A stretch of 64,000 nt of DNA from the NCBI GenBank assembly GCA_963855995.1, contig OY979726.1, positions 709,001 to 773,000 of the forward strand, written 5' to 3'. Numbering within the stretch: position 1 is the first letter of the stretch; every line of letters starts with the position of its first letter. The position numbers were made by a program, and so were the translations under genes. The stretch is from Muricea muricata. Taxonomy: Eukaryota > Cnidaria > Anthozoa > Malacalcyonacea > Plexauridae. This document shows positions 5,601 through 61,600 of the stretch, piece after piece. Below the pieces are notes generated by a model that saw only the letters and a program-made list of their open reading frames with translations, was not told the origin of the DNA and ran no database searches.

Positions 5601-8600
5601 TCTATGTCTTACAGAAGCAGAAAGACAAGAAATGGATAAGATCCAAAGACATTTCTTTGCTGCCGCTCGAGAAGGAAACATCAAGCTACTAAAAAGTTTG
5701 GTAAGTTGGGATTCATCGTTTAGTAAATCGACCAACACATGCCTTAACCAGATTTTCCTGTTCTCTAGCTTTTTGGGGAATACCCGCCAGACATCAACTG
5801 TACAGACGATCAGGGCAACACCGCGCTACACTTGGCTGCGTATAGGTAGGATGAACGAGAAAAGAAGTATCACAATATTACCTAAACTTAACGAATGGCC
5901 AAAAATGATGAGTTGTTACAGCTCTCTGAAAACAGAATGCTTTTTTTTATCAAATATAAGATGAAACAAATTCCTGAAATCGTCACCTTGTAAATATTTG
6001 AGAAACCAGACACAGAATTCTGGTGATATTTCAACTTGATTTTCCCGCTTCTGATTTTTGGTCAGATATGAAGAAACTTCTATGGAAATTTCTTTTAGAC
6101 GTTGCCCCGAATTCCAAATGGAATCAATTGGAATTCTCGTAGAAATCTAAATTTTCCAGTGGAATCTACTGATTAAACCTCGCATGTGAAAAGTAATGTA
6201 AAATTCTATTTTTTTCGCGCAGAGGGAAGAAAGAAGTTGCGGTAATGTTGCTGCAGAATGGTGCAAATCCAGCATTAAAAAATAACAGTGGTATGACACT
6301 CCTTCAATGTATCATTGAGAATAATTTGTATGGGTAGAACTGAATCAGGGGAAGAAGCACTGACGGTTAGAGCGTTGCATCTCAGTAAAGTTGGGCGGTA
6401 TACCAGTATTCTAAGACCCCGTTTACACTATGGCAAAAGATTCCTGATTCGCCGCTAATCCGGAATGTTTTGACATCGGATTCGTTTCACCGTTTTCACT
6501 AAGGAACATGAATCCGACACAAAATTATCACAGATAGATTATGAATCCGGAACTTTCGAATGCGGAAAGGTTTGTAGGATCTTTGTGTCCGAGAAAATTT
6601 GAATCCGACAAAACTTCTCGTGTTAACTCTTTCCGTAAAAGAATTTTGTGAATTTGCTTTCTTGTATTGTTTTCGAATATATTGTCCCTCAATTTCAACT
6701 ATCAAAATCGGTCAAAAAATCACAAAATAAGATTGGTAGAGTCACGGTTGTGTGTTCATCTTTTTATTTGAACTACAAGAATAGTTCACAAACGAAAAAC
6801 AAACACGTTGTATGTGTGATAATCCAAACACGAGTAGGAGGACTTCCGATTTCCAAACACAGCGAGTGGAGTTGAAAGTATAAGGCGAAGCCGAGTGTTT
6901 TTAACGAACGTCGAGTTGTTTGAAGGTACTTCTCAACGAACCAGTGTTAGGCGTGATAACGAACGAGAAAGCTAGTCTAATTTATGTAATATCTTCCTCC
7001 GATTTCTAAGCGTTTTCCGCGCTATCCATTTTCTTTGTTCATTGCTTTATGAATTATTACTGAGCTTGAGGATGATGTTTTAGGTCAAACAGCATTGCAC
7101 TTGACTGATGATGTGAAAATGAAGAAACTCCTTGATGTTCAACCATTGCAGGTTATTAATACTCATATAAATAAACTGTAGAATCTTTATGATTCCTGCT
7201 GAACAGACCTGGAACTACTGTAACTTCCGGAAGCGAATCCATTTTCCTTTTTCCAATCACTTACATCTTATTTTCCTGTAAAAAACTTGTTAAAACTTAG
7301 CAATCATGTTTACTAAACAAAATTATAAGTCCACCAGAAATTGGCAAATGAAGTCAATAATTTTTTAGTAGTTTAGCTCGAAAAACGGATTACTGTTTGA
7401 CATCTAGCGGCAGTACACTTTCACCTGGTCATCTATTAGTTTCATTGGCATTTACCTCCTAAGACATTATATAATATCTTACTTTCCAGATTTCCCGAAG
7501 CAATTCATTCCGTAAATCAACAAAGTCATTCAAGGTATGACAAAGAATTGAATCAAACTATTATTTTGATAAGTCCCGCACCTAATTTCCCTCCGTTTCG
7601 CTGGCTATATTTTAGCGATCTTTATAAAATATGCTGTTGTTTATGGTAAAATATGCTGGATTTCGTTTTTCGCAAGGTTTGGCAAAGAGTCGCGCCAAAG
7701 TTTGAAGGATATCTTTTGAAGAAATCGCGCTTTTTTGGTTGGAAGAAATACTGGGTGGTTCTCGATAACGGCGTAATATCTTGGTTTTCTAAAAGGTAAT
7801 TTTTGAATCACTTTAACTGTTTACTACAACAACAATTGAGTATATATCACGTTGGTCACTTCAAACAGACATGCTTTACCCAATATGAGTTACTTCTTCT
7901 TAAATCGGTTCGACTATTAAAGCCGTTTTCCACTTCAACCGTGTGGTAGCAAAACGCAGCGTCGGTATTTTATTCTAGACAATTTATAATGAAATCACAA
8001 ACGGCTTTACAACTACACATGATCATACTTCAGCAAAAATGTTAAATTTTTTTCGTATTGTTTCATTCTAGGGTAGATTCCGTCAGTGGTGTGAAGCGGC
8101 AAGGTTTGAGACATCTGGAGAATTCTGTTTTCGCGGTAGGTTTTTCGTAGTTTTTTTTTATTAAATCATATTTACTTGGGCAACATGGCTATGCAATCAT
8201 ATATAGCATTGTCACGTGTGCAGTTCTAAATTATTGCTACGTGAATTTTTTAGGTTTCCAAGAGAGACGAACATAAAATCAAAATGCAATTTTCGGATAA
8301 CTCAATTCTGATTTGGAGCGTTAAATCTGGTGGAAATGCTGTATCTAGACAGGTATATATGTTTAGTTTAGGTTCTTTCTGTAGTAACACTGGATCAATA
8401 AGAGATGATTCTTACTGGACCTCTAGGAAGAACAGTTTAGAACTGATAGCGCTATCCAGTATAAATAAAGTTAGTTTAGTTTAGGTTTCCTCCTGTAGTA
8501 ACACTGGATCAATAAGAGATGATCCTTACTGGACATCTAGGAAGAACAGTTTAGAACTGATAGAGCTATCCAGTATAAATAAAGTTAGTTTAGTTTAGGT

Positions 8601-11600
8601 TTCCTCCTGTAGTAACACTGGATCAATAGATGATCCTTACTGGACCTCTAGGAAGAACAGTTTAGAACCGATAGAGCTATCCAGTATAAATAAAGTTAGT
8701 TTAGTTTAGGTTTCCTTCTGTAGTAACACTGGATCAATAAGAGATGATCCTTACTGGACCTCTAGAAAGAACAGTTTAGAACTGATAGAGCTATCCGGTA
8801 TAAATAAAGTTAGTTTAGTTTAGGTTTCCTCCTGTAGTAACCCTGGATCAATAAGAGATGATCCTTACTGGACCTCTAGGAAGAATAGTTTAGAACCGAT
8901 AGAGCTATCCGGTATAAATAAAGTTAGTTTAGTTTAGGTTTCCTCCTGTAGTAACGCTGGATCAACAAGAGATGATCCTTACTGGACCTCTAGGAAGAAC
9001 AGTTGAGAACTAATAAGGGCTATCCGGTATAAATAAAGTTAGTTTAGTTTAGGTTTCCTCCTGTAGTAACACTGGATCAATAAGAGATGATCCTTACTGG
9101 ACCTCTAGGAAGAACAGTTTAGAACTGATAGAGCTATCCAGCATAAATAAAGTTAGTTTAGTTTAGGTTTCCTCCTGTAGTAACGCTGGATCAACAAGAG
9201 ATGATCCTTACTGGACCTCTAGGAAGAACAGTTGAGAACTAATAAGGGCTATCCGGTATAAATAAAGTTAGTTTAGTTTAGGTTTCCTCCTGTAGTAACA
9301 CTGGATCAATAAGAGATGATCCTTACTGGACCTCTAGGAAGAACAGTTTAGAACTGATAGAGCTATATCCAGTATAAATGAAGTTAGTTTAGTTTAGGTT
9401 TCCTTCTGTAGTAACACTGGATCAAGATGATCCTTACTGGACCTCTGGGAAGAAAAATTAAGAATTGATAAGCTATCCAGTATAAATAAAGTTTTAACAA
9501 ATGATATATTACATTTTCAGTCTTGGCTCAACTCCTTGCACGAACATCAAGCATATAGCACGTATTTCATCAACCAACATTCAGGCCTAATTGATGACGA
9601 GCTGGAAGACGATATCTTGCCAGTGGAAACTATGGAAAATGCTCTGAAGGCAAGTGAAGGACAACAATTGAAATATGTTGATTTCAACGTTTGACTTGGT
9701 AAATTATATCGTTATTCTAGGGTGCTCAAGCCCATCAAAATCTTCTAAAGAAACAAGTATCGCTTGTGGAGGAACTACTGAACGGACTTAGCGAAGACTT
9801 GAAACGATCCAAAAGTGAGTTGATTATTTAACCTGTGTAAGAGCTATACAAATTCGTTTTTATTGAATAACGGTATTTCTTTTCTCCCATGCTTTATCAG
9901 ACACTCCTCCGATGCTTTATTAGGTACTTACTTTTCTCCCATGCTTTATCAGGTACTTTTCTCCCATGTTGTATTAGGTACTTTTCTCAGCATCAAAGAG
10001 AAGTTAACCCAAGTCTTGGCGTCTGCTAAAGAGATGTACAGTTCTCTCAACCATTGTTTAAGTCTGGTTTCACAGCAAGAAGAGGTGGGTAACTTGTGCT
10101 TTATGACGTCATCATTTAAAGGTGTCAATGACATTGAACTATAAGTGAACTGGAGTGATATATGGGGAGGGGTAACTAACTTGATTAGTGATTTGTGGAT
10201 TGATATTTTGCGCTCGTCCATCCCTCGAATCCTGCTCCTTATTTTTTCCAGGCACGCAGGTTGCAGCTTGATGACGAGGCAGAACGACGGCGTGTACTGG
10301 AGGATGCGCTTCATGTGTTAGCTGCCGAACATCATGTACTCTCGTCATCGCTTGCACAGTTGCCTGAAGTACGAAATATCCGTAAACAGAAACTTTAAAT
10401 TCCGTCTCTTTTACACGTGACAAAACCTCTAAACCGTGCTAAAAATAACACTGGGTCAATAAGAGATTTTCCTTACTGGGCCTCTAGGAAGAACAGTTTA
10501 GAACTGATAGAGCTATCCAGTATAAATAAAGTTAGTTTAGTTTAGGTTTCCTCCTGTAGTAACACTGGATCAATAAGAGATGATCCTTACTGGACCTCTA
10601 GGAAGAACAGTTTAGAACTGGTAGAGCTATCTAGTAGAATTAAAGTTAGTTTAGTTTAGGTTTCCTCCTGTAGTAACACTGGATCAATAAGAGATGATCC
10701 TTACTGGACCTCTAGGAAGAACAGTTTAGAACTGGTAGAGCTATCTAGTAGAATTAAAGTTAGTTTAGTTTAGGTTTCCTTCTGTAGTAACACTAGATCA
10801 ATAAGAGATGATTCTTACTGGACCTCTAGAAAGAACAGTTTAGAACTGATAGAACTATCCAGTATAAATAAAGTTAGTTTAGTTTAGGTTTCCTTCTGTA
10901 GTAACACTGGATCAATAAGAGATGATCCTTACTGGACCTCTAGCTAATTCATCATTGATTCATCTTCAGTCCTCCGGCAAGGTGTCAAGCTGGGAAGCGA
11001 GCGAAGCTGAAGAGTACTACTCTCCTCAAGAAGAACTCGATTTTCTGTCCGCCAGTGACCAGGAAGAGAACGATGACTACGCCGTTCAGAAGCCTGTTGT
11101 CAATGGCAACAATGGCGTAGAACACGAAGCAAATGCCTTGAACCACAGCGAAGGAAACTCGGCATCCCCTGAGTTCACTGTAGCTAATGATACGACCTTC
11201 GAGTTGCCTGAAGGCAGACACAGGTAAGACTGTAATGGCTTGTTATCGCCACCAACCTATACGAAATGACTTTTGGTATAATACAGCGCAGCACAGTACA
11301 ATAGAACACAGCACAGCACAAAACAACACACTCATCAGTACATCTCACAGCACCACAGATATCTCATATACACTAGATAGCGCATCTGTATATCAAAAAG
11401 TGAGGTTAAAAACCTCAGCGGTATCTCCTCATAACAATAGGCGGCGGGCATATTGGTCGTTCCCACTCATTAAATAAATGCTACAGAAAACACTATACTT
11501 TTCTGCGTTTGTGTATGAAATACTTTTTAGCTGCATAAAAGAGGACTTACTGTCAGCTTTGTCCATTTCCGCAATACAAAATACACAAATTATCATGCTC

Positions 11601-14600
11601 CGTGGGAACGACCAGCGCCTGCGATCTGGCTTCAGTTTTCGCCTGCCCACAGTGTGGGATGCACCATCTAGTGTTTTTGAGGTATCTATGCAGAGCACAG
11701 CACACTTCACAGCACATTTAAGCACTTTTTCTTTTCCTAGAACAAGTCTACCTGTGCCGATGTTGTCGCGAGACTTCAGTGTTTGGGCAGTGTTGAAACA
11801 CTGTATTGGAAAGGTAACGTTTCCTGTTTTCTTAGTATTTCTTCGAACTCTGATAACTGCAGGTCCATAACTACTAGCCAACGTTTATTAGGATCTGTCC
11901 AGGATAACCATGCCGGTTATATTCAACGAGCCAATCACATTTCTTCAACGTATCTGCGAGTACATGGAGTATGGTCACATATTACAGACTGCGCAGACGA
12001 AAGATGATCCACTGGTTAGAATGCAGGTATCTCCTCTTCTACACTTGCTTAAACCTACTTTTACATACTCAAGTATACAAAGACGTGCAAATTGGAACAT
12101 GTCAGTTGACATCTTGCAACAGACTTGTTATCAACAAGCCGATATCAGGATACTGTTTGTCTGGCTTGCCACCGCTTGTTAACAACTGTCTACGGACTTT
12201 TTGAAGTTGCTTGTCAAAACTTGTTATCCACAGGCTTGCTGCAAGTTGTTTCAACAACTTTTTTAACAAGTTTGCAAATGACATGTTGCAACAAGCCTGA
12301 TTTTAACTGACTTGTAGCAACTTGATGAAACTGGCAAGTTTTTTGCAACAAGTAATAGCGTGTTTTCTTGTATGTTTTTTCATGTATTGAAATCTCGTTA
12401 CGAAGTAAAGGCATCTGAGTGTTGTGTATTTTAGTACGTCGCAGCCTTCGCAGCGTCATCAACGGCATCGAACTTACATCGTGTTGGTAAACCTTTCAAT
12501 CCACTCTTGGGAGAAACATTTGAACTTGTGAGGTGAGTTGTGGATATTGTTTGCTTCATGTGTCTTCATACACGATCACCTGGTTTAAAACATGGCCAAT
12601 GAAAATCGTTCTTTTGAACTTTCTAACCTCTCTCAAAAATGCTTCTCTCTAATAAGCACGCCTCCAATAAACTCCCTTTCTAATAACTCCCCCTTTCTGA
12701 TTACTCCCTTTCTAATCAGTTCCCTCTCTAATAAGCCCATCACTCTAATAACTCTTCTTGCTTCTCAAATAATCCCCCTCTCTTAATATTCCCCCTTTAT
12801 GAACTACCTCTCTGGTAAGACCTTCTCTAGTAACCCTCCTTCTAATACCCCCATCTAACACTCTCCCCTGCCTAATACCCGCCCCCTTTAATGAAACACC
12901 CTTTAAAAAGCATGTATCTTTTCTGTTTGTAACAGGGAGGATCTTGGATACAGAATAGTCACTGAACAGGTAAATGAATAATATCTTTAGCTTAGTATTG
13001 GTTGGCTTTTGCAATACCGATATCCATGCAAGCAACAGTAAATGATAGCGTATCTATTTATCCTCCATTTAACCGTCTTATCCCAGGTCAGCCATCATCC
13101 ACCGATCAGCGCACTACATTGCGAAGGCAAGGGGTACAAATTCCACTGTTCAGTTCAACCGAAGCTCAGGTTCTGGGGAAAGGGAGTCGAAATTGTCCCC
13201 AAAGGAATTGTCACTTTAGAGTTTACAGAGTAAGTATACATGATGTGATAGTCGTTCATGTGTTATGGTGTTGTGTACACAGGTAAAAATGATGGATAGT
13301 GATTTTTTTAACTGCCGCACAAAGTCATAAAAAGCAATGACACAAGCCATACAGAACTCGCAAGAGATAAAAAGTAACTTTAACTCGAAAATGCTGAACT
13401 TTAATATGGGTTTTAACAGTTACTGAATAGTGCACTATTCAGTGGATAGCGGTATTCACCTTTCGTACAACCGATCCCTGTAAATTAAAGATATGAGCAA
13501 GTGAATTATAAACATCATGATGTATTGTGTCATCGTGTGATTGTGCAGAAACTAGTGAAACATTTTGTTTTTATTTAGTTTGCAAGAGTCTTACACCTGG
13601 AGCAACATCAATGCATGTGTACATAATATCATTATTGGACAACTGTGGATTGAACAGGTAACTGAGGGTTACGCAGAGGTAGCCTCTCATTGAGCGCATA
13701 TCGTTGAGAACTATGTTAAAACATCTTCAAACTTGCATTCTCTTTGTGTTTTCCAGTATGGACAGATGGAGATCACTAATCATGCTCACGGTGTGAAATG
13801 TATTGTTAATTTCAAACCTTGTGGATGGTTTGGCCGCGAAGCAAATAAAGTAGAAGGAACCATCTATAGTAAAAAGTATGAGAAAGAAAGATAGCTCTTT
13901 CATTTCTAAACTGTTCTTCCTAGAGGTCCAGTAAGGATCATCTCTTATTGATCCAGTGTTACTACAGGAGGAAACCTAAACTAAACTAATTTTATTTATA
14001 CTGGATAGCTCTATCAGTTCTAAACTGTTCTTCCTAGAGGTCCAGTAAGGATCATCTCTTATGATCCAGTGTTACTACAAGAGGAAACCTAAACTAAACT
14101 AACTTTATTTATACCGGATAGCTCTTTCATTTCTAAACTGTTCTTTCTAGAGGTCCAGTAAGGATCACCTCTTATTGATCCAGTGTTACTACAGGAGGAA
14201 ACCTAAACTAAACTAACTTTATTTATACTGGATAGCTCTGTCAGTTCTAAACTGTTCTTTCTAGAGGTCCAGTAAGGATCATCTCTTATTGATCCAGTGT
14301 TACTACAGGAGGAAACCTAAACTAACTTAATTTTATTTATACTAGATAGCTCTATCAGTTCTAAACTGTTCTTCCTAGAGGTCCAGTAAGGATCATCTTT
14401 TATTGATCTAGTGTTACTACAGGAGGAAACCTAAACTAACTTAATTTTATTTATACTGGATAGCTCTATCAGGTCTAAACTGTTTTCCTAGAAGAGTGTG
14501 TTACCAGCATTCATTTATTTTCTTATCCAGTGGCGACAAAGAGTACATCCTTCAAGGTGACTGGACAGAACAACTCTACTGCTATCCAGCAAAGCGCAAA

Positions 14601-16296
14601 TCAAAAACAGACCACGATTACAAGACGCCATCAATGGGTTCAACGACTGGCAGTGCGTTGATAGTACCAAGCATTTCCAGTGCGAGTGCTGATAGCTCAG
14701 ATGACGACGAGGAGGATGATTGTCGAGTCCTTCTGTGGAGGGTCAACCCCCGGCCACCAAATTCTAAGGAGGTAATTGTGTAGACTTAGGGTAATTTTCA
14801 AGCGGGGGGGTACTTGTAAAGAGTGAAGGATGCCGTCCTTATCAGTTTTACAGTTAAATTGAAAAAGTGATTTTTTTAGATGTACAATTTTACCTCATTT
14901 GCGATGCAGTTGAACGAACTGCACGAAGATCAAGCTGACAAGGTCAGTATAAGAAAGAGAGCATTTTCCGGACAGCGTTATTTAACTTGTAAGTCGGCAT
15001 TTGTGGGGTGGTGATTTGAGCCAAGTGCTTTAACTTCCAAGATCGTGGGCTAAACTTCTCAATGCGGAAACACCTTAGTCAGAGGTGACTGGCATTCGCT
15101 GGTATTCTCCCGGTAGTGTGGTTGCCTCCCACAGGAAATGTTGACAGGGTGGGTTACGACTAGCCCCTAACTGATCCTTCCGTCGTAGCTGTGCTCGGTG
15201 ATCAGACATGAGTCATTGGACGGCTGACTGAAGGCGCTTTGGAAAGCCTTCAAGTGGACCAGGTTGAACAGCGTCCTTCGTGATTTAGCCTCGCTCTCAG
15301 CTGCAAGAAAGGATGACATGCCCAAACTCTTCATATTCTCTCTCTTTATCATGTTTCAGCTTCCCCCAACAGATGCTCGCCTCAGACCAGACGTTCGTGC
15401 ATTGGAAACGTTGGACATAGGTACATCAAAGAATAAATATAACTATTGTAATTGGATATGACTGTGTTAAATAAGAAGCCAGGCGGCAGCCTCGTGTTTT
15501 TTAGGGAAAAACTATTGAGACTTAACAACTGTTTATTCAGATTATGCTGCTGATGAAAAGAGAAGATTAGAAGAAAAACAACGAGCGACCAGAAAAGAGA
15601 GACACAAGAGAAAAGAAGAGCATATCCCGAGGTAAAGAATGAAATAATCAGTGACATAAGTTAGTTTAGCTTAGGTTTCCTCCTGTAGTAACACTGGATC
15701 AATAAGAGACGATCCTTACTGGACCTCTAGGAAGAACAGTTTAGAACTGATAGAACTATCCAGTATGAATAAAGTTAGTATAGTTTAGGTTTCCCCCTGT
15801 AGTAAGAACTGGATCAATAAGAGATGATCCTTACTGGACCTTTAGGAAGAACAGTTTAGAACTGATAGAACTATCCAGTATAAATAAAGTTAGTTTAGTT
15901 TAGGTTTCCTCCTGTAGTAAGAACTGGATCAATAAGAGACGATCCTTACTGGACCTTTAGGAAGAACAGTTTAGAACTGATAGAACTATCCAGTATAAAT
16001 AAAGTTAGTTTAGTTTAGGTTTCCTACAGTAGTAAGAACTGGATCAATAAGAGATGATCATTACTGGACCTCTAGGAAGAACAGTTTAGAACTGATAGAG
16101 CTATCCAGTATAAATAAAGTTAGTTTAGTTTAGGTTTCCTCCTGTAGTAACACTGGCAGACCACGTCTTCATTCAACACGATTCTTTGTTAAGGTGGTTC
16201 AAAGAGGGGCCCAATCCATGCAACGGACAAACGGATTGGCTATTCATGGACAAGTACTGGGAACGAGACTTTAGCAAATGCCCGGATATATTTTAG
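2623..16296 (+). CDS. OSBPL1A: oxysterol-binding protein-related protein 1 (ORP1L type)
   Basis: The 30 coding exons total 2967 bp (988 aa plus stop): 2623-2697, 4203-4254, 4730-4815, 5068-5142, 5254-5365, 5615-5700, 5769-5845, 6223-6290, 7084-7151, 7490-7534, 7677-7795, 8072-8135, 8254-8352, 9521-9649, 9721-9814, 9978-10084, 10252-10368, 10970-11223, 11741-11813, 11892-12026, 12435-12532, 12936-12969, 13087-13229, 13579-13657, 13757-13875, 14531-14771, 14880-14942, 15360-15420, 15541-15631, 16194-16296. All phases agree. Ankyrin repeats come first ([29 protein letters not shown]). A PH domain follows ([20 protein letters not shown]), then coiled coil and an acidic linker. The C-terminal ORD has [28 protein letters not shown], the OSBP signature [28 protein letters not shown] and CHNPDIF-like ending SKCPDIF. 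Family members move sterol and phosphoinositide lipids at endosome-ER contacts. Length is close to human ORP1L (about 950 aa). Intron 14 is GC-AG; introns 13, 17, 25 and 29 are filled with 114-bp repeats. Confidence 0.95.
6405..6965. repeat. possible dispersed repeat in OSBPL1A intron 8
   Basis: The interior of intron 8 (6291-7083) has repetitive-looking short motifs: repeated AATCCGA/AATCCGGA words at 6455-6615, and AAACACGAGTAGGAGG followed by AAACACAGCGAGTGG at 6825-6872. No terminal inverted repeats or target duplications were found, so the family and boundaries are unknown. Confidence 0.25.
8361..9492 (+). repeat. 114-bp tandem array A1 (about 10 units)
   Basis: Head-to-tail copies of the 114-bp unit lie in OSBPL1A intron 13 (8353-9520). 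The forward unit starts near GGTTTCCTCCTGTAGTAAC and ends near GTATAAATAAAGTTAG. The array begins 8 bp after the intron's GT and stops 28 bp before the 3' splice site. Variant units (AACGCTGGATCAACAAGAG with ACTAATAAGGGCTATCC) recur at about 8950-9055 and 9180-9285, a spacing of two units, which is a higher-order pattern. Confidence 0.95.
9893..9977 (+). repeat. duplicated 3' splice-site motif before OSBPL1A exon 16
   Basis: A short degenerate repeat (TTTCTCCCATGCTTTATCAG, then GGTACTT) occurs about four times. Each copy ends in a usable AG (9900, 9923, 9952, 9977). The homology frame uses the last AG. Use of 9923 would add 54 bp (18 codons) in frame without a stop. Confidence 0.6.
10446..10943 (+). 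repeat. 114-bp tandem array A2 (about 4.4 units)
   Basis: The same unit and orientation as A1, in OSBPL1A intron 17 (10369-10969). It ends 26 bp before the exon-18 acceptor. Some units carry ATCTAGTAGAATTAAAG in place of ATCCAGTATAAATAAAG. Confidence 0.95.
12090..12352. repeat. CAACTTG/CAAGTTG-rich degenerate repeat
   Basis: In OSBPL1A intron 20, words of the type ACTTGTTAACAA, GCAACAAG, CAAGTTG and CAACTTG recur in both orientations over about 260 bp, giving many short overlapping inverted repeats. I cannot assign a family. Confidence 0.5.
12610..12900. repeat. degenerate CTCTAATAACTCCCC repeat
   Basis: A pyrimidine-rich stretch in OSBPL1A intron 21 where CTAATAA(C/G) with CCCTCTCT-type spacers recurs about every 17-22 bp. 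It looks like a decayed minisatellite. Confidence 0.6.
13889..14491 (-). repeat. 114-bp tandem array A3 (about 5 units, reverse)
   Basis: The 114-bp family in reverse orientation (CCTAAACTAAACTAACTTTA ... TTATTGATCCAGTG) in OSBPL1A intron 25 (13876-14530). It starts 13 bp after the donor and ends about 40 bp before the acceptor. Confidence 0.95.
15660..16156 (+). repeat. 114-bp tandem array A4 (about 4.4 units)
   Basis: Forward orientation in OSBPL1A intron 29 (15632-16193). It breaks off inside a unit (GTAGTAACACTGG) 37 bp before the acceptor of the last coding exon. Confidence 0.95.
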
Positions 16297-17613
16297 CATC
16301 GTCGGGGCACGACCAGAATTATTTTGAAATATTTGGAAATGAAATAGTGAAGAGGAAGAGCGAATTTAAATTTGATACAACATGTTTCAGAATAATTTTA
16401 AGGAATGACTAGCCACTCTTATTAGTGATACCAATGAATCTTGGTTAAAATGGACCTACTTCTTCAGCCGCGCTTTTGTTGTAAAATAGCACTAGGTATG
16501 CTAAAATGGCACCATGGTGTCGCGTATCGGCTTGCACTGCAGAAAGCTTATGTAAATCGCCGTTGGAATGTGCTTCTATTACTCTATATCATACCGTATC
16601 AATCAATCAAGAAAATATTCTATATCGGGGAGTAATTGAACCTTGTGTATATCTCAAGACCACATTATATTGTAATTTCTGAGTAGTTTTGGTTTATTGT
16701 GTCTTAACTCGTAGTCTTTAAGGATATTTCACAATCGTCTTTCCCACACAAATATCTTTTTAGTGCTTAAAGACAGCTTATTGTAGAATACTACCTACAT
16801 TGGACCACCACGTTTGAGATATCTTTTTCAGGTAGTTCAGACTCAAACCACCACAGCTTATTGTAGAATACTAGCTACACTGGACCACCATTTTTGAGAT
16901 ATCTTTTTCAGACACAAACCACAACAGCTTGTAGAATACCACCTACACTGGACCACCAAGTTTAAGATATCTTTTTCAGGTAGTTCAGACTCAAACCACG
17001 ACAGCTTATTGTAGAATACTACCTACACTGGACCACCGCGTTTGAGATATCTTTTTCAGGTAGTTCAGACACAAACCACGACAACGTAGTGTCTAGTGTA
17101 ATACTTTCGATGCGTCTGTATATCAGCGAGATTCAATTTGCAACAAAAATTACCAAGCTAAATGAGGCTACGAACAAAGTAACGAACGCAAACGATACAT
17201 AAGTCGCCCGTGCGATATTTCTTTCACGTCGCGTGGGAGTTAGCGACATCTTAAAATAACAAAGGCCGACTAATAACTGATAGGCTGGCAGTTTGACCCG
17301 TAATGACACGGCCGCTAATTGTGGTACAAGAACAAGAGTTGAAACATGTCCTCACGGTGATTTGCATTCGAATTCGTCAATTTCTTAGCGAAATCATCGA
17401 CGATCTTGCAGAAATTAATGGCTAAATTGCACCACGTTCCTGACAGTCGTCATTTAATAAGACGCAATGTTTTAAACACGTTTTGAAATTCACCGGATAT
17501 GAGTGTAATTAGCGTCGGCTGACTCCGTTCTACTTGAGGTGCTTTGGTTGAGGTGATATTCAGTACGTTCTTTCGCTCGCGACAGTACCAGCTTCGTGCT
17601 CGGGTTTTGGACT
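16297..17613. other. OSBPL1A 3' flank and TET 5' flank
   Basis: No coding sequence is recognised here. It should hold the OSBPL1A 3' UTR, the 80-bp repeat array at 16774-17093 and the TET promoter/5' UTR. I found no clear AATAAA soon after the OSBPL1A stop and no clear TATA box before the TET ATG. Confidence 0.5.
16774..17093 (-). repeat. 80-bp tandem array B1 (about 4 units, reverse)
   Basis: The unit, reverse of B2, reads CTTATTGTAGAATACTACCT, ACACTGGACCACCA, GTTTGAGATATCTTTTTCAG, GTAGTTCAGAC, AAACCACGACAG. It lies about 520 bp upstream of the TET start and is inverted relative to the array in TET intron 3. Confidence 0.9.
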
Positions 17614-23600: not shown

Positions 23601-26600
23601 AGAAAACTCTCATACAAAGTCTCGCTTTCCGTAGAAATAACGTTTTTAATTTACAAAGGTTGGTCAGAGCGAGAAGGAAGCGAAAAATCGCCATGGGTGT
23701 CCGGTGGCGAGATGGGTAAGTCACAGTTAAATCTTTATCACTGATCAGCTTATCACGGCACTTTGTACGGAGAATGATACGTGGACGTGCGAAAATACCA
23801 GATTTATTTGAACATGATATTTCACGAGTGAGAATTGTCATGTTCAACATCAGAAAAAATGGTATCTTCGACCAGCCACGAACTTCTCCGTTTACTGTAT
23901 CATAGAAACTACAATCTACTAGCGATCTAAAATATCCATAAGCTGTGTTTGATCATTGTCTGCAAACTATCATAAATGATCTCACATGTAAGATTATCAG
24001 CTTTGTCAGTGCCCGAAATCCCTATAATTATAAAGTACTAAAACTGAGTAATAATCATCGATCGTGCTTTCAATGATTCTGCAGGTTCTGCGTCGCAAAA
24101 GTGCTGAAGAGAAAATCCTTAGTGTTGTTCGTCAACGGCCAGGACACACCTGTGATTTCGCTTACATTATTATATGTATTGTCCTTTGGGATGGCATCGC
24201 TACCGACCAGGCTGACTCATTGTATGCAGAGCTTAGCAGCACTCTCAGTGAGCACGGAACGCCTACCACAAGGAAATGCGGTACCAATAAAACGTATGTA
24301 GAGATCGTAGTCTAACCGTTTTTCCTAGAGATCCAGTAAGGATCACCTCTTATTGATCCAGTGTTACTACAGGAGGAAACTTAAACTAAACTAACTTTAT
24401 TTATACTGGATAGCTGTATCAATTCTAAACTGTTCTTCCTAGAGGTCCAGTGAGGATCATCTTTTATTGATCCAGTGTTACTACAGGAGGAAACTTAAAC
24501 TAAACTAACTTTATTTATACTGGATAGCTGTATCAATTCTAAACTGTTCTTCCTAGAGGTCCAGTAAAGATCATCTCTTATTGATCTAGTGTTACTACAG
24601 GAGGAAACTCAAACTAAGCTAACTTTATTTATACTGGATAGCTGTATCAGTTCTAAACTGTTCTTCCTGGAGGTCCAGTGAGGATCATCTCTTATTGATC
24701 TAGTGCTACTACAGGAGGAAATCTATTTATTTTGGATAGTTTTAACAGTTCTATATTTTTTATAATGCTCTCGTTTAGAAAACAATGTGCGTGTCAGGGT
24801 AGTGATCCTAATACTGCTGGGGCCTCGTTCTCGTTTGGATGCTCGTGGAGTCGTTTCATGAACCGCTGCAAGTTTGCACGAAGCAAGATACCACGCAAGT
24901 TTAAGCTTCGAATTCAATATCAAGAAGAGGTAAACTAAGCTAACAATTAACTTTATTTATACTAGATACTCTATCAGTTCCAAACTGTTCTTCCTAGAGG
25001 CCCAGTTAGGATCATCTCTTATTGATCCAGTATTACTACAGGAGGAAACCTAAACTAAACTAACTTTATTTATACTGGATAGCTCTATCAGTTCTAAACT
25101 GTCCTTCCTAGAGGTCCAGTAAGGATCATCTCTTATTGATCCAGTGCTAGCACAGGAGGAAACCTAAACTAAACTAACTTTATTCATACTGAATAGCTCT
25201 ATCAGTTCAAACTGTTTTTCCAAGAGGTCCGGTAAGGATGGTCTCTTATTGATCCAGTCTTTTGTGGCGTTGACAGTTTGTTTTCTCAATTTTTTAGGAA
25301 GATACGATCGACAGTCTTCTTCAAAATTTAGCCACACAAGTCGCGCAAACATACAAAACATTGGCTCCTGAGGCTTTTGAAAATCAAGTAAGCAATGTTG
25401 CAGTTTACAACAAGAGCTTACAGTAACTCTTGTAAAATTTAGAAATATTTGATAAGGTCATAAACAAATCACGGTGCGGTATTTAGGTTACGTGTGTACG
25501 CTTGTAAACTGCACAAGATCAGAAAAAGGAGTTTTTTATGAAAGCTAACGATACTAATTGAGACTCTAATAACACGCTAATAAAGCATGGGATTGTCCCC
25601 ATGGACTCATTTTACAAGTGCGTTAAAATAGTCGTAAGCTGATTTTTATTGGGATGAAAACAGGCATGCGCTGCATGCTCGCCTTCGTTCTTTTAATCTC
25701 ATCTATTTAATTACACGATTGCAGGCATGAATATGAACTACCGCGGTTCGAACAGAAAGACTTAAAGAAGTGTTTGTTAATAGATGCTTTTTTAACTTAT
25801 ATGATATTCTACAAATTAGAGTTTCTCCCTCCTTGGAAAATTATAACTAATGTAAATTGATAAGTACAAACTGTAAGCTCACACATTTGTTGAGAGGTTA
25901 TTGTTTTAAGATCCTGAGATTCATATATATAGAGGATATTACACGGCGGTGCGAAGATATGAATTTTATCTTCGAGTGGTTAAAACAATATTTTATGAAC
26001 GAGCGCAGCGAGTGAGTAAAATATTGTTTTCAACACGAGTAAATATTATTCATATCTTCAAGCTACCGTGTAACGTTCTTCTTATTATATGGTCAGAAGT
26101 CGGAACAAGCTAACGGAGAACATGTAAATTTCGCGGGAAAACACATGCGTTTTTTATGCGTTACATATCTTTTTTCATATCTTCACTAGTGAAAATATTG
26201 AAAATACGAGTGTTTTAACCATATGAAAAATATATATATGAAAGACGCCAATTTAATTCTCACACCTCTCACATAGGCTCGCCATGATTCTGAAGGGGTG
26301 GAGTGTCGCATTGGCAGCAGCAAAGATGGCACGAGACCGTTCTCTGGGATCACGTGTTGCGTTGATTTTTGCGCGCACAATCACAAAGACGATCATAATA
26401 TGGAAGATGGCGCAACTGTGGTAAGCAGCTATACTTACGATAAAACACAAAATTATTTTAAAAGACGGATCTTTAATTGTTTCTAAACTGTTCTTGCTAG
26501 AGTCCATATCCAGTGTTACTGCAGGAGGAAACCTAAACTAAACTAACTTTATTTATACTGGATAACTCTATCAGTTCTAAACTGTTCTTCCTAGAGGTCC

Positions 26601-29600
26601 AGTAAGGATCATCTCTTATTGATCCAGTGTTACTACAGGAGGAAACTTAAACTAAACTAACTTTATTTATACTGGATAGCTCTATCAGTTCTAAACTGTT
26701 CTTCCTAGAGGTCCAGTAAGGATCATCTCTTATTGATCCAGTGTTACTACAGAAGGAAACCTAAACTAAACTAACTTATTTATACTGGATAGCTCTATCA
26801 GTTCTAAACTGTTCTTCCTAGAGGTCCAGTAAGGATCATCTCTTATTGATCCAGTGTTACTACAGGAGGAAACCTAAACTAAACTAACTTTATTTATGTT
26901 GGATAGCTCTATCAGTTCTAAACTGTTCTTCCTAGAGGTCCAGTAAGGATCATCTCTTATTGATCCAGTGTTACTACAGGAGGAAACTTAAACTAAACTA
27001 ACTTTATTTATACTGGATAGCTCTATCAGTTACACAAATACGAATTTTAAGACATATGAATTAATCACTGTATCGCCAAAATATTATTTAGGTGTTGACA
27101 TTACTGGGCAAAGATGCTCGACAAAATGAAGACACTGAAATCGACGAGCAGTTGCACAGTCTTCCGCTGTACCATCTCCTTGACGACAATGACAACATCG
27201 TCCCACCCAATTACGTCATACCTAAACATCTTCTGACGTCACCAATGGCCCCCAGTCCTGTTGCAGATCATTCAGATACAGTGGACTTGCTCCGTGATCA
27301 ACAATTCCCTGAGAGCAATATCACCGGTAATATAAACCCCGAAGTACATGACATTCTGGATCGGAATTCCGATATGAAAGCTCCTGGTGTACAGAACTCG
27401 CAGCATCGCAATTCGACGGTTTCAAATTTCGGACATCAAAACTTAAACTCAAGAATGTCAAATATTCCAAATTCTGGTTATGCCAATAACGCAATAAATG
27501 GTAGAGAACCTCAGAAAGAACATTTTTCCGGGGATAATGTTCCCGTGAGAACAAATTCGGACAGCAATTTTTTACAAAACAGTTTGCTGAACAAGCCAGC
27601 GAACGGCCACAACAATGCGTTACAAAAACAGCATCATTCTGGCGAGTTCGCAACAAGTAATTCTGTTAGGTCGAACAGCTACAGTCAAGAATTCCTGAAA
27701 GTGCAATTTCCGGGGTATCCTTTTCCTACGGGACAAAATCCCGGGATTTCGGCAGTAAACGGTTTCCGTGATATACGGGAAACGACCCCAGGGATAGGAG
27801 AAATGAATCCGAACCCACGAGAAACGAACGATGGTGCGCGTAAAACCAACCCAGTTATCGAAGGCGTGAACATGGGAAATATCGACTCAGGACAAGAGAG
27901 AATTTTGAACGGAAGTTATAACAAGCCTATGGATGCCTTTGATTTCTTTAGCAAGTATATGAACGGGAACAAACACCCGGGACATGTTAACCGATGGGGG
28001 AATGCTACGCAAGGATATAACGGCTTTCCGTTTTATGGCATGACCAACGGATTGGTCAAGAATGGCTACCACTTAAATGGTTTGGTGGGGCCTGAGTCGA
28101 TGGAGAATTCTGAGAAATCGATGTGTCCTGAGAAATTCCTTCAGGAGTCTAAATCACAGAATTCTACAGCACAGAATTCTACGAATTCCACGGAGGATGA
28201 CGTGAGATGGATCGATAATTCTATGGGTGGCGTTGGCATAGCTTTGTCCCATGGCTCGATTTTCGTAGAATGCGCGAAACAGGAGGTGCACGCGACGACG
28301 AGGATCAAGAATCCGAACCGGAAATCACCAACCAGGCTTAGCCTGGTGTTTTACCAACACCGCCTGATGAATTCCAAGAATCATGGCTACGAAGAGTACC
28401 AGAAAGCTTTGGAACAAAAGGCTGCTGCAGCGGCAGGCTCCGATGGCGAGTCGACTGATGCCTTTGATCTCCGGATGTTAGCTGAGACGGCGGTGAATTA
28501 CCCCAGCCCAGCGGGGAAGGCGATGGTAAATATAAATAATTTCCGCGAAGGAATCCCGCAGGCCACTCAGAACGGACTCGGCGACCTAGGAAGGACGTCA
28601 TCAATCAATGAAAATAGGGGCAATCATCCGAAACCAACCGGTCCATTTCAGTCCAATAGGACAGCAACTTACCCTGAAAAGCAGCTGCCGGTGAATAAGA
28701 TTGTGGGCAGTAATCAATTTGCGCAAGCAAATGGCGAATCCAGGCCATCCATTAGTGCGCATGCTCTGGAGTACCGCCTACCGCAGACCAATGGTATCGC
28801 CAAGACATATCTCAAGGGTTCAGTTCTAAACAACCAGAATTCCTCCAATCCATTATCCGACTTCTTCCGCAGGTTGAACCATAAAGATTACAGCAACTAC
28901 GCACACCCTTACCCCACGTTCCCATATCCGAACACCCTTCCCCCATCTTCGTTCATTTCTCCAATATTCCTACACCCACCTCGGCACCCGATGTTCAACC
29001 ACTTCACCCCCGCGGGTCGCGGCTCGTTTCACGTGCTCAACTCACAACACCAAACTGGACTACCAGGTCACGAAATCAACCCGACTCCGGAGCCTAACCT
29101 TGTGCGCAACACGTTTCAAAACCCACTAACTCATCCAGCGGGAACGGTAGGATATAAAACTTCCCCAAACACACAAAGACAGCCAGCACCGGAGATGAAG
29201 AAGACTGCTGAGCCTAAACTACCGCCAAGCACAAATCGTGTCACGTCTTCCAACGACGTAAAGTCCAACTCTCACCTAAAGACTTCACTGAATACGAACA
29301 ACTATTCGGTCGAAGCGTTGCTAGATAAAAAGCGACAACACAATGGACTTGTCTCCAACGGCGTTGGTGAGAGCAATCCGGGTAAACAAAGACGACTTGA
29401 CCGAAAAGATTTGAGCTCATTTGTTAGCAAGCAGCATGACATACCCTCCCGCGCCCTTGGCTTCCTCTTGCATCCAGAAATAACGATGAATCATTCGGAG
29501 TTTTCGTCGTGTAACCTGCCGTACAGGACTGGCACGCCGACGTACGGGACTGACTCTTTGGTGAACATGGCACCGTTCACCGGCACGTTAGTTGGCGGAG

Positions 29601-30203: not shown

Positions 30204-30750
30204 TGCTATCGAGCCCTAAATTGTTCTTCCTGGAGGTCCAGTCATTTCTTATTGATCCAGTGTTACTGCAGGAGGAAACCTAAACTAAACTAACTTTATT
30301 TATAGTGGATAGCTCTATCAGTTCTAAACTGTTCTTCCTAGAGGTCCAGTAAGGATCATCTCTTATTGATCCAGTGTTACTACAGGAGGAAACCTAAACT
30401 AAGCTGACTTTATTTATACTGGATAGCTCTATCAGTTCTAAACTGTTCTTCCTAGAGGTCTAGTAAGGATCATCTCTTATTGATCCAGTGTTACTACAGA
30501 AGGAAACCTAAACTAAACTAACTTTTTTTATACTGGATAGCTCTATCAGCTCTAAACTGTTCTTCCTAGAGGTCCAGTAAGGATCACCTCTTTTCAATCC
30601 AGTGTTACTAAAAAAAGGAAACCTGAACTAAACTTACTTTATTTATACTGGATAACTCTATCAGTTCTAAATTGTTCTTCCTAGAGGTCCAATAAGGATT
30701 ATCTTTTATATTGATCCAGTGCTACCACAGAAGGAACTCTATCAGTTCTG
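30204..30750 (-). repeat. 114-bp tandem array A8 (about 4.7 units, reverse)
   Basis: An intergenic array of the 114-bp family starting about 70 bp beyond the TET poly(A) signal. Outer units are more diverged than inner ones. Confidence 0.95.
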
Positions 30751-44526: not shown

Positions 44527-45351
44527 TTATCCCTCTAAACTTCAATTTCCGAATACTTTTTTTTAAATGAATGCTTTGTAAGACATGTTAATTGCATTTA
44601 TAACTACAGTTCTACATCGTTAGCGTCTCATAACCATTTTGTTTTTTTCTAAATAATTAAATCCGCAATCATTGCTTGCATATGAAACTTGACTTTAGCC
44701 ACAAAAATAAGTTGCCCGAGACTTGCAATACATTGCAAATGGCAAACACACATAATATATTGCCCTGACAGTGTCTTGTTACACATTGTTTTTTAAAAGT
44801 TCTATAAAAATGTCTTTCATCAGCTGTGCGCTTAGTTTTCCCAATTTTGATTGTGAATTGTATCGAAAAGCTATATACATGGGCAGTAAACTGCATTTTA
44901 AAGTGATACTAAAAGCACCGCTACATATTAAATTGGATTAAGCCCACAGGCACAGCTACATACATACATACACACAAACACAACTGTACCTCTACAAAGG
45001 AATCTCAGAATTGTTTTGTTTTTAATTCTGCTTATCCCAACCTATATCTCATCGAGTTTTGGCTAACCTTTCTTGACCTAGGTTTCTGCTATGCATTGTT
45101 TAATCGGGATATTGAGACAAAATTGACCGAAATATTTTGACGGGATTTCGTAGAGAGAAATTGATCTCGCGCCAAATTCCCGGTGATACATAAATATTTT
45201 CGGTAACCTGACCAGCTGGATTACTAAGGCTTGTTAAGTTGTTATTGAAAAAAACTCCAACGTCGCAAAGTTCATCGGTAGGCGTTGGACACGAAAATGT
45301 CTCATGTTTTCATCTACTTGTCCCTAGTCCTAGGAGTTGCGCTGTTTTTGA

Positions 45352-45980
45352 GTAGTAAATAAAGTTTGTTTAGTTTAGGTTTTCTCCTGTAAATATGATC
45401 CTTACTGGACCTCTGGGAGGAACAGTTTGGAACCGATAGAGCTATCCAGTATAAATAAACTTAGTCTAGTTTAGGTTTCCTCCTGTAGTAACTCTGGATC
45501 AACAAGAGATGATCCTTACTGGACCTCTAGGAAGAACAGTTTAGAACTGATAGAGTTATCCAGTATAAATAAAGTTAGTTTAGTTTAGGTTTCCTCCTGT
45601 AGTAACACTGGATCAATAAGAGATGATCCTTACTGGACCTCTAGGAAGAACAGTTTAGAACTGATAGAGTTATCCAGTATAAATAAAGTTAGTTTAGTTT
45701 AGGTTTCTTCCTGTGGTAACACTGGATCAATAAGAGATGATCCTTACTGGAACTCTAGGAAGAACAGTTTAGAACTGATAGAGCTATCCAGTATAAATAA
45801 ACTTAGTCTAGTTTAGGTTTCCTCCTGTAGTAACTCTGGATCAATAAGAGATGATCCTTACTGGACCTCTAGGAAGAACAGTTTAGAACTGATAGAGTTA
45901 TCCAGTATAAATAAAGTTAGTTTAGTTTAGGTTTCTTCCTGTAGTAACACTGGATCAATAAGAGATGATCCTTACTGGAC
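45352..45980 (+). repeat. 114-bp tandem array A11 (about 5.5 units)
   Basis: An intergenic array in forward orientation. The variant AAACTTAGTCTAGTTTAGG followed by TAACTCTGG occurs at about 45468 and again at about 45809, three units apart, showing amplification of a multi-unit block. Confidence 0.95.
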
Positions 45981-50860: not shown

Positions 50861-51348
50861 TGTTAAACTAACTTTATCGTAGCTCTATCAGCTCTAAGCT
50901 GTTCTTCCCAGAATTCCGGTAAGCATCATCTTATATTGATCCAGTGTTACTACAGGAGGAAACCTAAACTAAACTAACTGTATTTATACTAAATAGCTCT
51001 ATCAGTTCTAAACTGTTCTTCCTAGAGGTTCAGTAAGGATCATCTCTTATTGATCCAGTGTTACTACAGGAGGAAACCTAAACTAAACTAACTTTATTTA
51101 CACTGGATAGCTCTATCAGTTCTAAACTGTTCTTCCTAGAGGTCCAGTAAGGATCATCTCTTATTGATCCAGTGTTACTACAGAAGGAAACCTAAACTAA
51201 ACTAACTTTATTTGTACTTGATAGCTCTATCAGTTCTGAGCTGTCCTTCCTGGAGGTCCAGCAAGGATCATCTCTTATTGATTCAGTGTTACTACAGGAG
51301 GAAACCTAAACTTAACTAACTTCAGTTCTAAACTGTTCTTGGAGGTCT
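50861..51348 (-). repeat. 114-bp tandem array A12 (about 4 units, reverse)
   Basis: Intergenic, reverse orientation, with decayed edge units (left TTATCGTAGCTCTATCAGC, right missing its middle). Confidence 0.95.
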
Positions 51349-58079: not shown

Positions 58080-58109
58080 GAAGCTCTTAATTTGGTCAGT
58101 AAAATCTTT

Positions 58110-58496: not shown

Positions 58497-58502
58497 TTTA
58501 TT
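58497..58502 (-). terminator. possible poly(A) signal of LRMDA
   Basis: AATAAA on the minus strand about 180 bp after the LRMDA stop codon. Confidence 0.45.
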
Positions 58503-58683
58503 TCCAGTCCATTTCTCTGATTGCACTTGCTCAAGCTTACTTTGTACAGCATTTTTATCTCTTTGAGAATTGTACTCTGTTCAATAATTTCTCGCCGAAC
58601 GCAAAGCGGTTCCGGAGCGAACAATTCCGTATCTCTACACCCCCCAGTTCAATGATATAATTTATAATAAGTTAGCATCTCCA

Positions 58684-61600
58684 TCAGAGATCAGAATTTC
58701 TTATGAATCGATTTCCCTCCGAATGTTTTCCAACGTAGACGTAGCGATTTCGTGAGTAGGTCCCGTGATGATCGCCGGCATCCGTCAGCCGCTGAGGTAA
58801 TGGCGTATAGTCGTGCTCATTTCTTCGTTCCTTGTTGGCATTCTCCTTCTCTTCCTCCTGAGGAAAAATCGCAAAATCCGTTAGGCCAAAAAATATGTGA
58901 CGGCGGTTTACGGATTTGTTACGGGTTTGCGCACTTTCGGGTCAATTGTGGCACGCTAGTGCAGAAGCAATACGATTTTTTGAAATATATTTTATAAAAG
59001 TAACCAATCTTTGCAATTTTACTAATTTTAAGATGCTCTTTCCAAAACTGTGCTGTTAGATTTCAATCGTCTTGTTTAGCTCAAAATCTAGCCTATGATG
59101 GGAATTGTCCATTCAATCTAATCCAGGCTATGGAGTTTCGTTGGGACGCCTGGCACCCACTTTATGACTCTAGTCACATAACAGGCAGCCATGCAGAAAC
59201 TATAATCACGTTGGCACTGTACTTACTGTTATTTCTTCTCCTGGAGCAACAACCTTTAAAAATGCACCTCGTTTTATCCCTTCTTGGCGTTCTTTGTTTG
59301 TAACTTCTTTCGAGTCCAAGAATTTTAAATTTGGTAGCTTGTGGAGGACAAAGTATCTAAGGGAATTACAAGAAATTTATGGTTTATACTAGGTTAATAC
59401 CATACAAGATGATGGTCTCTATAGGAAGAACTGTCTCGAACTGATAGAGCTATCCAGAATAAAAAAAGTTAGTTTAATTTAGGTTTCCTCTTGTAGTAAC
59501 AGTGAATCAATAAGAGATGATCCTTACTGGACCTCTAGGAAGAACATTTTAGAATTGATAGAGATATCCAGTATAAATAAAGTTAGTTCAATTTAGGTTT
59601 CCTCCTGTAGTAACACTGGATCAATAAGAGATGATCCTTACTGGACCTCTACGAAGAACATTTTAGAATTGATAGAGCTGTCCAGTATAAATAAAGTTAG
59701 TTTAGTTTAGGTTTCCTCCTGTAGTAACACTGTATCAATAAGAGATGATTCTTACTGGACCTCTAGGAAGAACAGTTTAGAACTGATGGAGTTATCCAGT
59801 ATGAATAAAGTTAGTGTAGTTTAGGTTTCCTCCTGTAGTAACACTGGATCAATAAGAGATGATTCTTACTGGACCTCTAGGAAGAACAGTTTAGAACTGA
59901 TGGAGTTATCCAGTGTAAATAAAGTTAGTTTAGTTTAGGTTTCCTCCTGTAGTAACGCTGGATCAATAAGAGATGATCCTAACTGGATCTCTAGTACAAA
60001 CAGTTTAGAACTGATACAGTTTATAAGTAAAGTTAGTTTAGTTTACCTATATCTTTGATAGTCTGCCTCATCGTTTTCCTTGTGCGACAATTCATTCGGA
60101 CATGCAGTATTGCCAAGAAGACTCAAATAAGTTAGTGACGGGAGATTTTTGGATATTTTCTCAAGAAAAGATTCTAGATTTGTTATCTAAGTGAGCGTTA
60201 AAGGAACACCTTGGAAAACGAGAGCTAACTATTTGGGTTAGGAGAGGAAGAGGGGGGGGGGGTGATTGGGAGGCTGAAGAATAGAGAAGGGAATAGAGGC
60301 AGACATGAGGGGGATGGATGGTGGAGAGAAGAAAGCTGGGAGAAATGGAGAGTGGTGGTATAGAAAGTGAAGGAAGAGGTGGAAGAAAAAGTGGAGCGAG
60401 AGGGGAATGAAGGAGCAATAGGGGGGAGAGCAATAGGGGGGAGAGGAAACATGGAATAGGGGGATTGTGAAATGGAGAGTGGTGGTATAGGGTGATATAG
60501 GGTGATATATGGTGGAGCAGGAGGGGAATGAAGGAGGGATAGGAGGAAAAGAGGAAGCATGGAAAAGAGGGAGACAGGAATAAGGGGAGACAGGGGGAAT
60601 AGAGAAAGAAAGAAATGATTGAATGTGGTGAGGGGAAGACAAAATTGAGAAAGAGAGGAAAAAAAGAAATGGGTGGGAAATAGATGAAGGAGGAGGGGGA
60701 TGAATGGAAGATAGATAGGGGTGGAAGAGGAAATAAGAGAGGGTGGAAGAAATGAGAGGGGGGACAGGAATACAGCTGAATGGAAGGGGGATAGAGAGGG
60801 TGTGGAACAAGAGAGGGAAGGAGGTGGGAAAGAAAGAATGAAGGAAAGAATAAAGGAGGGGAGAGAGGGAGAAAGAAGAGTTGTAAAAGGTTCGGATAAG
60901 AAATGGGTTTTGGTTAGGGTGCAAGCTAAGATTAAGCTTGTTGTTTCAAGGATACTTTATTTTTATTCATAGTTAAAGTATGAACATATTCTAAAACTGG
61001 AAAAATCACATCATCATCAATTTCGTTTCCATCTAAAATCAATTCTCGAAGTTCAGTAAAGCCCTGGATTCCCTCCAAATCACTGGAAATAAAGAAAGAA
61101 AATAAAATGAATGTTAAATGGCTGAGAAAGCCAGTGTTGAAGCATCCACAATCATTATGAAATAAGTATTGACTCTTGACTTGCCGCAGTCTATTAAAGC
61201 AAAGATCTAATCGTAGAATGTTTGGTCCATATGTGATCCCTAAATCTGGCGGGATGACCAAGGCATCTCGTCCTACCATCGAAAGCTGAAATGGAGGAAA
61301 TACTGGTACATAAGTTTATGCCCTTTCGTATCGATTCCACTCAACTCATGATTTGTATCTATCTTTGTGTGATACTCAGGTAAAAATGATGTTGGTAGTG
61401 TTACTCTGCATTTATATGCATGCTGGGAAATGTGTCAGACCACAGCAGAAATCTAACCTGCAACAAACATTCTCCCAACAGACTGTATGCTTCAGTATAT
61501 AGTCCAGGGTGCATTCAATGCATGTTTTGTGGAAGATCTTTGGCGTGAGTTTTGGATTGCTGGTGCACAATCACATTGAGGTTGGCGCACAAATTTTGAG

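Follow-up and report, generated by a model that had tools for sequence, protein, structure and literature searches.

Arrays of a 114-bp repeat fill introns almost up to the splice sites in a 64-kb window of the Muricea muricata genome

In the 64-kb stretch of Muricea muricata DNA analysed here, which is called the window in the following, nine introns of four genes are occupied over 75-97% of their length by arrays of one 114-bp unit. These introns apparently keep little beyond their splicing signals, and it seems that a gene can survive the overwriting of an intron's interior. We think there is about an even chance that a dispersed minisatellite, inserted in the form of concatemers, has displaced the intron DNA down to what splicing tolerates.

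TRF together with unit mapping gave 13 arrays in the window, 95-1133 bp long and seven of them on the minus strand. The first-pass annotation had placed nine of the 13 in introns, which was borne out by spliced protein alignment for OSBPL1A, TET and WNT8, and by a reading by eye for a gene with leucine-rich repeats that may be LRMDA. For this LRMDA-like gene, a PDB search returned leucine-rich repeats only and a Pfam search gave no match. In OSBPL1A, an array of about 10 units at 8361..9493 (+) lies in the phase 0 intron 8353-9520 and leaves a remnant of 8 + 27 bp (here and below donor side + acceptor side), and further arrays are found at 10446..10943 (+) in intron 10369-10969 (77 + 26 bp), at 13890..14492 (-) in the phase 2 intron 13876-14530 (14 + 38 bp) and at 15658..16156 (+) in the phase 2 intron 15632-16193 (26 + 37 bp). 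The acceptor of intron 10369-10969 was set by hand, replacing the introns 10369-10773 and 10787-11030 of the aligner, which had a false exon within the array. In TET, the array 24314..24725 (-) lies in the phase 2 intron 24294-24778 at the place of human TET2 c.3803 (20 + 53 bp), the array 24927..25261 (-) in the phase 0 intron 24930-25297 at the place of c.3954 (0 + 36 bp), where the donor coincides with the start of the array, and the array 26481..27031 (-) in the phase 0 intron 26421-27091 at the place of c.4182/4183 (60 + 60 bp). The minus-strand WNT8 gene carries the array 33430..33625 (-) in its phase 0 intron 33386-33645 (20 + 44 bp), and the minus-strand LRMDA-like gene the array 59419..60045 (+) in intron 59357-60046 (1 + 62 bp). 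The remaining arrays lie in no recognised intron; these are 30206..30736 (-), downstream of the large TET coding exon, a single degenerate unit at 37208..37302 (+), 45351..45980 (+), and 50864..51340 (-), whose score of 14.5 is the top among these four.

The arrays begin 0-77 bp from the donor and stop 26-62 bp before the acceptor, so that the gaps of 0-70 and 25-60 bp given in the first-pass annotation were nearly exact. The remnants of the nine introns measure 35-120 bp (median 63), compared to 68-1505 bp (median 312) for 32 array-free introns of the same genes (one-sided Mann-Whitney p=2.8e-5), and they are also shorter than the 13 array-free introns of <=170 bp (p=0.002). Six of the nine (35, 36, 52, 63, 63 and 64 bp) fall below the shortest array-free intron, versus 0/32 (Fisher p=1.9e-5). 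The comparison contains two array-free introns of the LRMDA-like gene of about 767-769 bp and 102-108 bp, and the OSBPL1A intron 7137-7525 was changed before the counts to 7137-7489, which has a weak donor and is doubtful; as unsupported, all TET introns upstream of 22506 were excluded, together with the first intron of WNT8. When nine length-weighted random intron insertions were simulated, a total as small as that observed was reached in 0/200,000 draws, in agreement with the earlier view that the pattern in the window is more regular than random insertion. Introns make up 22% of the non-array part of the window as measured, compared to nine of the 13 arrays that are intronic (p=4e-4). As the long 5' introns of TET and WNT8 do not enter into it, the 22% is too low, and we do not lean on this value.

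The sequences of the units indicate in which form the arrays arrived. In the window, units differ by 7.5% between arrays (96% of the star expectation) and by 6.1% within arrays (84%), and in a set of 61 arrays the corresponding values are 11.8% (94%) and 9.6% (86%). As the divergence within arrays is close to that between arrays and star-like, local growth of the arrays out of a single inserted unit does not explain them. For the 61 arrays, neither the end phases nor the length modulo 114 show a departure from uniform (KS p=0.58, 0.70 and 0.46), and together with the near-equal divergence this suggests that the arrays probably came as ready-made multimers. Multimers from a homogeneous pool fit these observations, and an excess of similarity within arrays is present as well. 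Nearest-neighbour units share an array at 0.28, compared to a shuffled mean of 0.09 and above all 500 shuffles, and therefore some local copying occurred. No repeats were detected within 150 bp of an array in the array-masked window, the 114-bp unit showed no relation beyond shuffles to the 80-bp and 97-bp units, Rfam gave no match at the gathering score, and exact 26-mer scans of a viral and a prokaryote collection gave 0 matches in each.

Across the genome, 1,633 exact 26-mers of the repeat were counted (control 0), and copies in either orientation are scattered over many contigs. A dispersed minisatellite is defined by units of one family that are joined head-to-tail and occur at many separate loci, and this is what is found here; one TET exon that was searched is single-copy in the genome. 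The genome sample comprised 76 array rows from 48 loci, of which 49 rows were tested. It is a non-random sample, drawn from the first listed places on contigs C2-C6, the majority of them on C6 below 2.6 Mb, and from the closest matches to a single array. Dropped from it were 21 rows (14 loci), namely the window copies L001 and L004, the multi-kb repeats L009-L014, L016 and L017, the near-identical duplicate L036 and the seemingly duplicated L024-L026 near the start of C6, whereas L027 was retained though it has 1.2 kb at 92% in common with L024; six further rows shorter than 95 bp or close to a locus end were removed. Pairs of a splice site and coding sequence flank 19 of the 49 arrays outside the window (39%), compared to 10.2% of 1,440 controls (score 15), and for DNA ligase 1, annexin and UTP20 a protein alignment runs gapless over the predicted junction. 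Outside the window, acceptor-like sites are most frequent at a distance of 30-60 bp from the ends of the arrays (17/98 flanks versus 5.1% in controls). The donor-side excess there is weak (p about 0.05 in the 30-90 bp bins and p=0.25 at 0-30 bp), and at a strict single-site threshold none is seen, with 0/98 flanks per bin to 160 bp and about 1% in the control. The first-pass annotation had named a match of these distances to random intronic placement as what would refute it; run in part, on this non-random sample without gene models, the comparison did not do so, with a clear signal for acceptors and a weak one for donors. Judged from the pair test, about 20-32% of the sampled arrays look flush with splice sites, far below the nine of 13 in the window, which is an extreme case relative to the genome sample.

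In two introns, donor bases are partly derived from the array, and in the LRMDA-like gene all of the donor GTAAAC from base +2 onwards belongs to the array. Donors are weaker in array introns than in 28 array-free rows (median 6.7 versus 8.55, one-sided p=0.005) from which two doubtful rows had been removed; with 30 array-free rows the two-sided value is p=0.03. Acceptor strength does not differ between the two groups (p=0.93). The positions of the array ends, which reach or nearly reach the donor and lie 26-62 bp short of the acceptor, together with the two donors partly derived from the array, support the strong selection on the remnant that had been considered before. Unit-like sequence is significant in one of 15 remnant pieces of at least 12 bp, namely on the 3' side of TET intron 24294-24778, where about 35 bp still resemble the unit. 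An RNA structure that draws the splice sites together was also considered and is unsupported, as the folding of the unit is no stronger than that of shuffles (z -1.06 and -1.30).

The mechanism that we favor, at the even chance given above, would begin with ready-made concatemers of the dispersed 114-bp minisatellite, cut at random phases. These would probably stem from rolling-circle or extrachromosomal circular DNA, whose copies would have been captured at chromosome breaks. A copy landing in an intron would displace the unique intron sequence, either by deletion at the break ends during insertion, as we infer, or by a subsequent loss of sequence adjacent to the array. Survival would be limited to events that retained a working donor, branch point and acceptor, and therefore ancient introns would now be almost wholly array. 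Should the array-free introns of <=170 bp represent the ancestral state, not much DNA would have to be deleted.

Introner elements are repeats that fill introns nearly end to end in unrelated genes; they give rise to new introns, and their fixed ends bear the splice signals. A birth of this kind, with an array that bore or made splice signals and formed new introns in exons, could account for remnants shorter than the array-free introns of the window and for the two donors partly made of array. However, each of the TET array introns has a human TET2 intron of identical position and phase as its counterpart (c.3803, c.3954 and c.4182), and all three therefore predate the split of this animal from vertebrates, whereas the divergence of the units from their consensus is as low as about 4% in the window and 6% in the 61 arrays. 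The intron birth from a repeat that the first-pass annotation had considered is thus contradicted at these three introns, and is refuted for TET. Unlike introner elements, the testable introns are old here and the array ends fall at random phases; remnants vary among introns, no common splice signal was found at array ends and no common terminal sequence is visible among the nine window-intron remnants. We therefore consider intron birth barely credible. An improbable, though somewhat better, candidate is a transposon body such as a MITE or a Helitron with a tandem core, whose defined ends have decayed by now. Dispersal over many contigs in both orientations would be expected from it, and within two sets of multi-kb repeats the family is represented by a segment whose phases are fixed. 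The first set is L009-L011, to which L016 is more distantly related (phases 34-96, with L017 deviating at one end), and the second is L012-L014 (phases 105-75). Against it, the end phases of the 61 other arrays are not constant but compatible with uniform, the window arrays have no repeat within 150 bp, and no target-site duplication was seen by eye at the nine intron junctions.

That the nearness to splice sites is accidental, arising from random intronic insertion with loss from exons, is very improbable: the simulated draws never reached the observed total and the acceptor peak at 30-60 bp recurs outside the window, although in the genome sample arrays flush with splice sites are the minority and donors are in weak excess. 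Insertion may have been targeted to introns, and arrays could prefer short introns or delete intron DNA on insertion. A less probable yet serious reading than ours assumes preferential insertion into introns of already about 70-120 bp, for example because these are open or break-prone, with small deletions and the flush fit as a by-product. It is attractive as 13 of the 32 array-free introns are <=170 bp long, the shortest being 68 bp, and as remnants of 63-120 bp require little or no deletion, but six remnants lie below that shortest intron, the array abuts the donor itself in two introns, and the remnants are shorter even than the <=170-bp class. More unlikely, we think, is that intron interiors are overwritten as a class, with a repeat family that is preferentially captured in introns and replaces all that splicing can do without. 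Intron sequence would then turn over continuously, with concatemers taking its place, instead of through point changes or transposon insertions, and breaks linked to transcription or splicing might guide this process.

For the displacement of intron DNA by inserted concatemers, partial parallels exist. Drosophila euchromatic 1.688/Rsp-like satellites form arrays spread through euchromatin, with circular DNA proposed as the vehicle, but we know of no replacement of intron interiors by them. Our literature search of titles and abstracts found no report of intron-filling arrays in cnidarians. The euchromatic TCAST satellites of Tribolium are likewise dispersed and enriched in introns, with very rare exon overlap, but they are mostly single repeats with units of 294-1771 bp instead of arrays of 4-10 units, and the part of that paper used here reports no relation to splice sites (PMC5844308). 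Interstitial telomeric sequences of human and horse, inserted at double-strand breaks, are also ready-made tandem arrays inserted in one step, and their flanks have often undergone deletion, with Table 5 of that paper assigning 20 of 66 loci to deletion alone (PMC7215372). Some are intronic, at a share of 31% that was called compatible with random insertion; they differ in being telomeric hexamers for which telomerase was proposed, and the sections considered report no intron that they occupy as far as its splice sites (PMC7215372).

In introns that this animal has in common with humans, a single repeat family can apparently take over the entire interior without any change in position, phase or reading frame. 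The introns with minimal remnants form a natural set from which the true requirements of splicing in this animal can be read, and they provide an example of intron replacement that is recent, can be dated and is open to a direct test by comparison of related species.

The window corresponds to C11:709001-773000 in a genome of 453 Mb and 74 contigs, and the 114-bp unit forms 13 arrays in the window, of 95-1133 bp each and in both orientations. Gene positions come from spliced alignment with animal protein sequences together with PDB comparison, which identified OSBPL1A/ORP1, WNT8 and TET, the last also by Pfam Tet_JBP and CXXC matches. At 59-61 kb, PDB comparison recognized a leucine-rich-repeat gene on the minus strand, with exons delimited by eye; we take it to be LRMDA-like. 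GC-AG introns were seen at 9650 in OSBPL1A (by the aligner) and at 61184 in the LRMDA-like gene (by eye). The OSBPL1A intron 9815-9977 has a short tandem duplication (9872-9988) of a 25/52-bp piece, which includes an acceptor-like CAG|GTA and spans the acceptor itself. The long open frame at 56028-58079, which has no Pfam match, contains a 168-bp repeat (56904-57262).

Nine of the 13 arrays are intronic and occupy 75-97% of their host introns, four in sense and five in antisense orientation relative to the gene. The stretches left between donor and array and between array and acceptor measure 8/27, 77/26, 14/38 and 26/37 bp in OSBPL1A, 20/53, 0/36 and 60/60 bp in TET, 20/44 bp in WNT8 and 1/62 bp in the LRMDA-like gene. 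The remnant outside the array thus totals 35-120 bp (median 63, n=9), compared with 68-1505 bp (median 312) for 32 array-free introns of the same genes (one-sided Mann-Whitney p=2.8e-5), a few of whose boundaries are uncertain, which changes their lengths by anything from several bases to some tens of them. Remnants are also shorter than the 13 array-free introns of at most 170 bp (p=0.002), and six of the nine fall below 68 bp, as does none of the 32 (p=1.9e-5). Under length-weighted placement of nine insertions, the observed sum was met in 0 of 200,000 draws.

Genome-wide, an exact 26-mer of the unit occurs 1,633 times and its backward control not at all. A sample of 48 loci held 76 array rows, of which 49 were scored by their best pair of donor and acceptor, sought up to 90 and 75 bp away and required to have coding-like flanks. 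A score of at least 15 was reached by 19/49 arrays, compared with 10.2% of the 1,440 intervals that served as controls, and one of at least 18 by 12/49, compared with 5.1% (rank test p=3e-7), which suggests that about 20-32% of the sample lies flush with splice sites. In the window, the nine intronic arrays all score at least 18 and the other four at most 14.5, but the coding score had been trained on the host genes of eight of the nine. Acceptor-like sites are enriched 30-60 bp from array ends (17/98 flanks versus 5.1% in controls; p=9e-6, for one of the 16 bins tested at this threshold) and fall to control level beyond 150 bp. The excess of donor-like sites is weak; at a strict threshold no donor excess was found beside the sampled arrays, and the acceptor excess within 80 bp persists (p=0.001). 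Spliced flanks of the 20 best-scoring loci gave Pfam matches over the curated cut-off in seven (UTP20, annexin, LDL-receptor class A, PLAT, TAF1A, DNA ligase and Tub), clearly crossing the predicted junction for UTP20, annexin, DNA ligase and Tub, and PDB alignments, made for three loci, cross it without a gap in each (DNA ligase 1, annexin, UTP20). As the choice of loci already depended on this score and its distance limits, they confirm real introns and not the distance distribution. The claim of the first-pass annotation, that arrays fill introns up to the splice signals, is confirmed and not restricted to the window, which is an extreme case.

The first-pass annotation had also considered introner-like intron birth, which is rejected for TET, because its three array introns match human TET2 c.3803 (phase 2), c.3954 (phase 0) and c.4182 (phase 0), in a protein alignment without gaps around the junctions. 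The human positions were compared with published variant and exon data: c.3803+2T>G is listed as a variant (PMC12173198), c.3954+ is the donor of intron 7 (PMC10435687), and c.4183G>A is p.Val1395Ile in exon 10 (PMC8917718), which supports the c.4182 boundary and is no proof alone. The array introns of TET are old, and intron birth is considered unlikely for those outside TET.

Old introns may have become filled by deletion at insertion, by preference for short introns or by later loss beside the array. That arrays displaced intron sequence is favored by remnants shorter than the local minimum intron length, and by the arrays that begin at the donor in TET (24930) and the LRMDA-like gene (60046), where donor bases from +2 onward are array sequence and, by eye, both donors enter the same stretch of the unit. 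Displacement is also favored by weaker donors in array introns (median 6.7 versus 8.55), the one-sided test giving p=0.005 against 28 array-free rows and the two-sided test p=0.03 against 30. Acceptors are of similar strength in both groups (p=0.93). A precedent, as described in PMC7215372, is telomeric-repeat insertion at breaks, in which an array is inserted in one step with frequent flank deletion.

Local multiplication from one inserted unit would leave within-array differences far smaller than those seen. Units of different arrays in the window diverge by 7.5% and units of the same array by 6.1%, which is 96% and 84% of the expectation for independent divergence from one consensus; the genome sample (61 arrays) gave 11.8% (94%) between and 9.6% (86%) within arrays. 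The nearest neighbor of a unit lies in the same array in 28% of cases (shuffled mean 9%, highest of 500 shuffles 23%), a real excess, consistent with some subsequent local exchange. Phases at both ends and length modulo 114 showed no departure from uniform in 61 arrays, a test that left out the multi-kb repeats at array loci L009-L011, L016 and L012-L014, and the array-masked window held no repeat within 150 bp of any array. Ready-made, randomly cut concatemers, as from rolling-circle products, fit these data, and circular DNA may have been their source. Against this simple picture speak the two multi-kb repeat sets, L009-L011 with L016 (contigs C2 and C3) and L012-L014 (C2), in which each repeat has one piece of the family at fixed phase; they are possible carriers of it. 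Likeness is about 95-99% within L009-L011, 82-90% for L016 and 94-99% within L012-L014, and long open frames are few.

Locus L030 (C6:1449700-1457700) holds six array rows in 8 kb in both orientations. Array spacing and strand patterns are alike near the starts of contigs C3, C5 and C6, which suggests duplicated subtelomeric blocks there; loci L024 and L027 share 1.2 kb at 92%. Another tandem family, with units of 80 bp, occurs at 16772-17092, 20080-20415, 47736-48008 and 48049-48188, and also at loci L018 and L008; its unit resembles the 114-bp one no more than shuffled sequence does. A seeming third family, of 77-97 bp units, lies at 21127-21375, 23402-23630 and 55692-55945, and its copy in the TET intron 23067-23658 stops 28 bp short of the acceptor.

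A literature search, in its result listings, returned no report of arrays taking over introns in this way. In kind, the 114-bp family is already known, being a dispersed minisatellite; what is unusual is the near-total takeover of old introns by its arrays.
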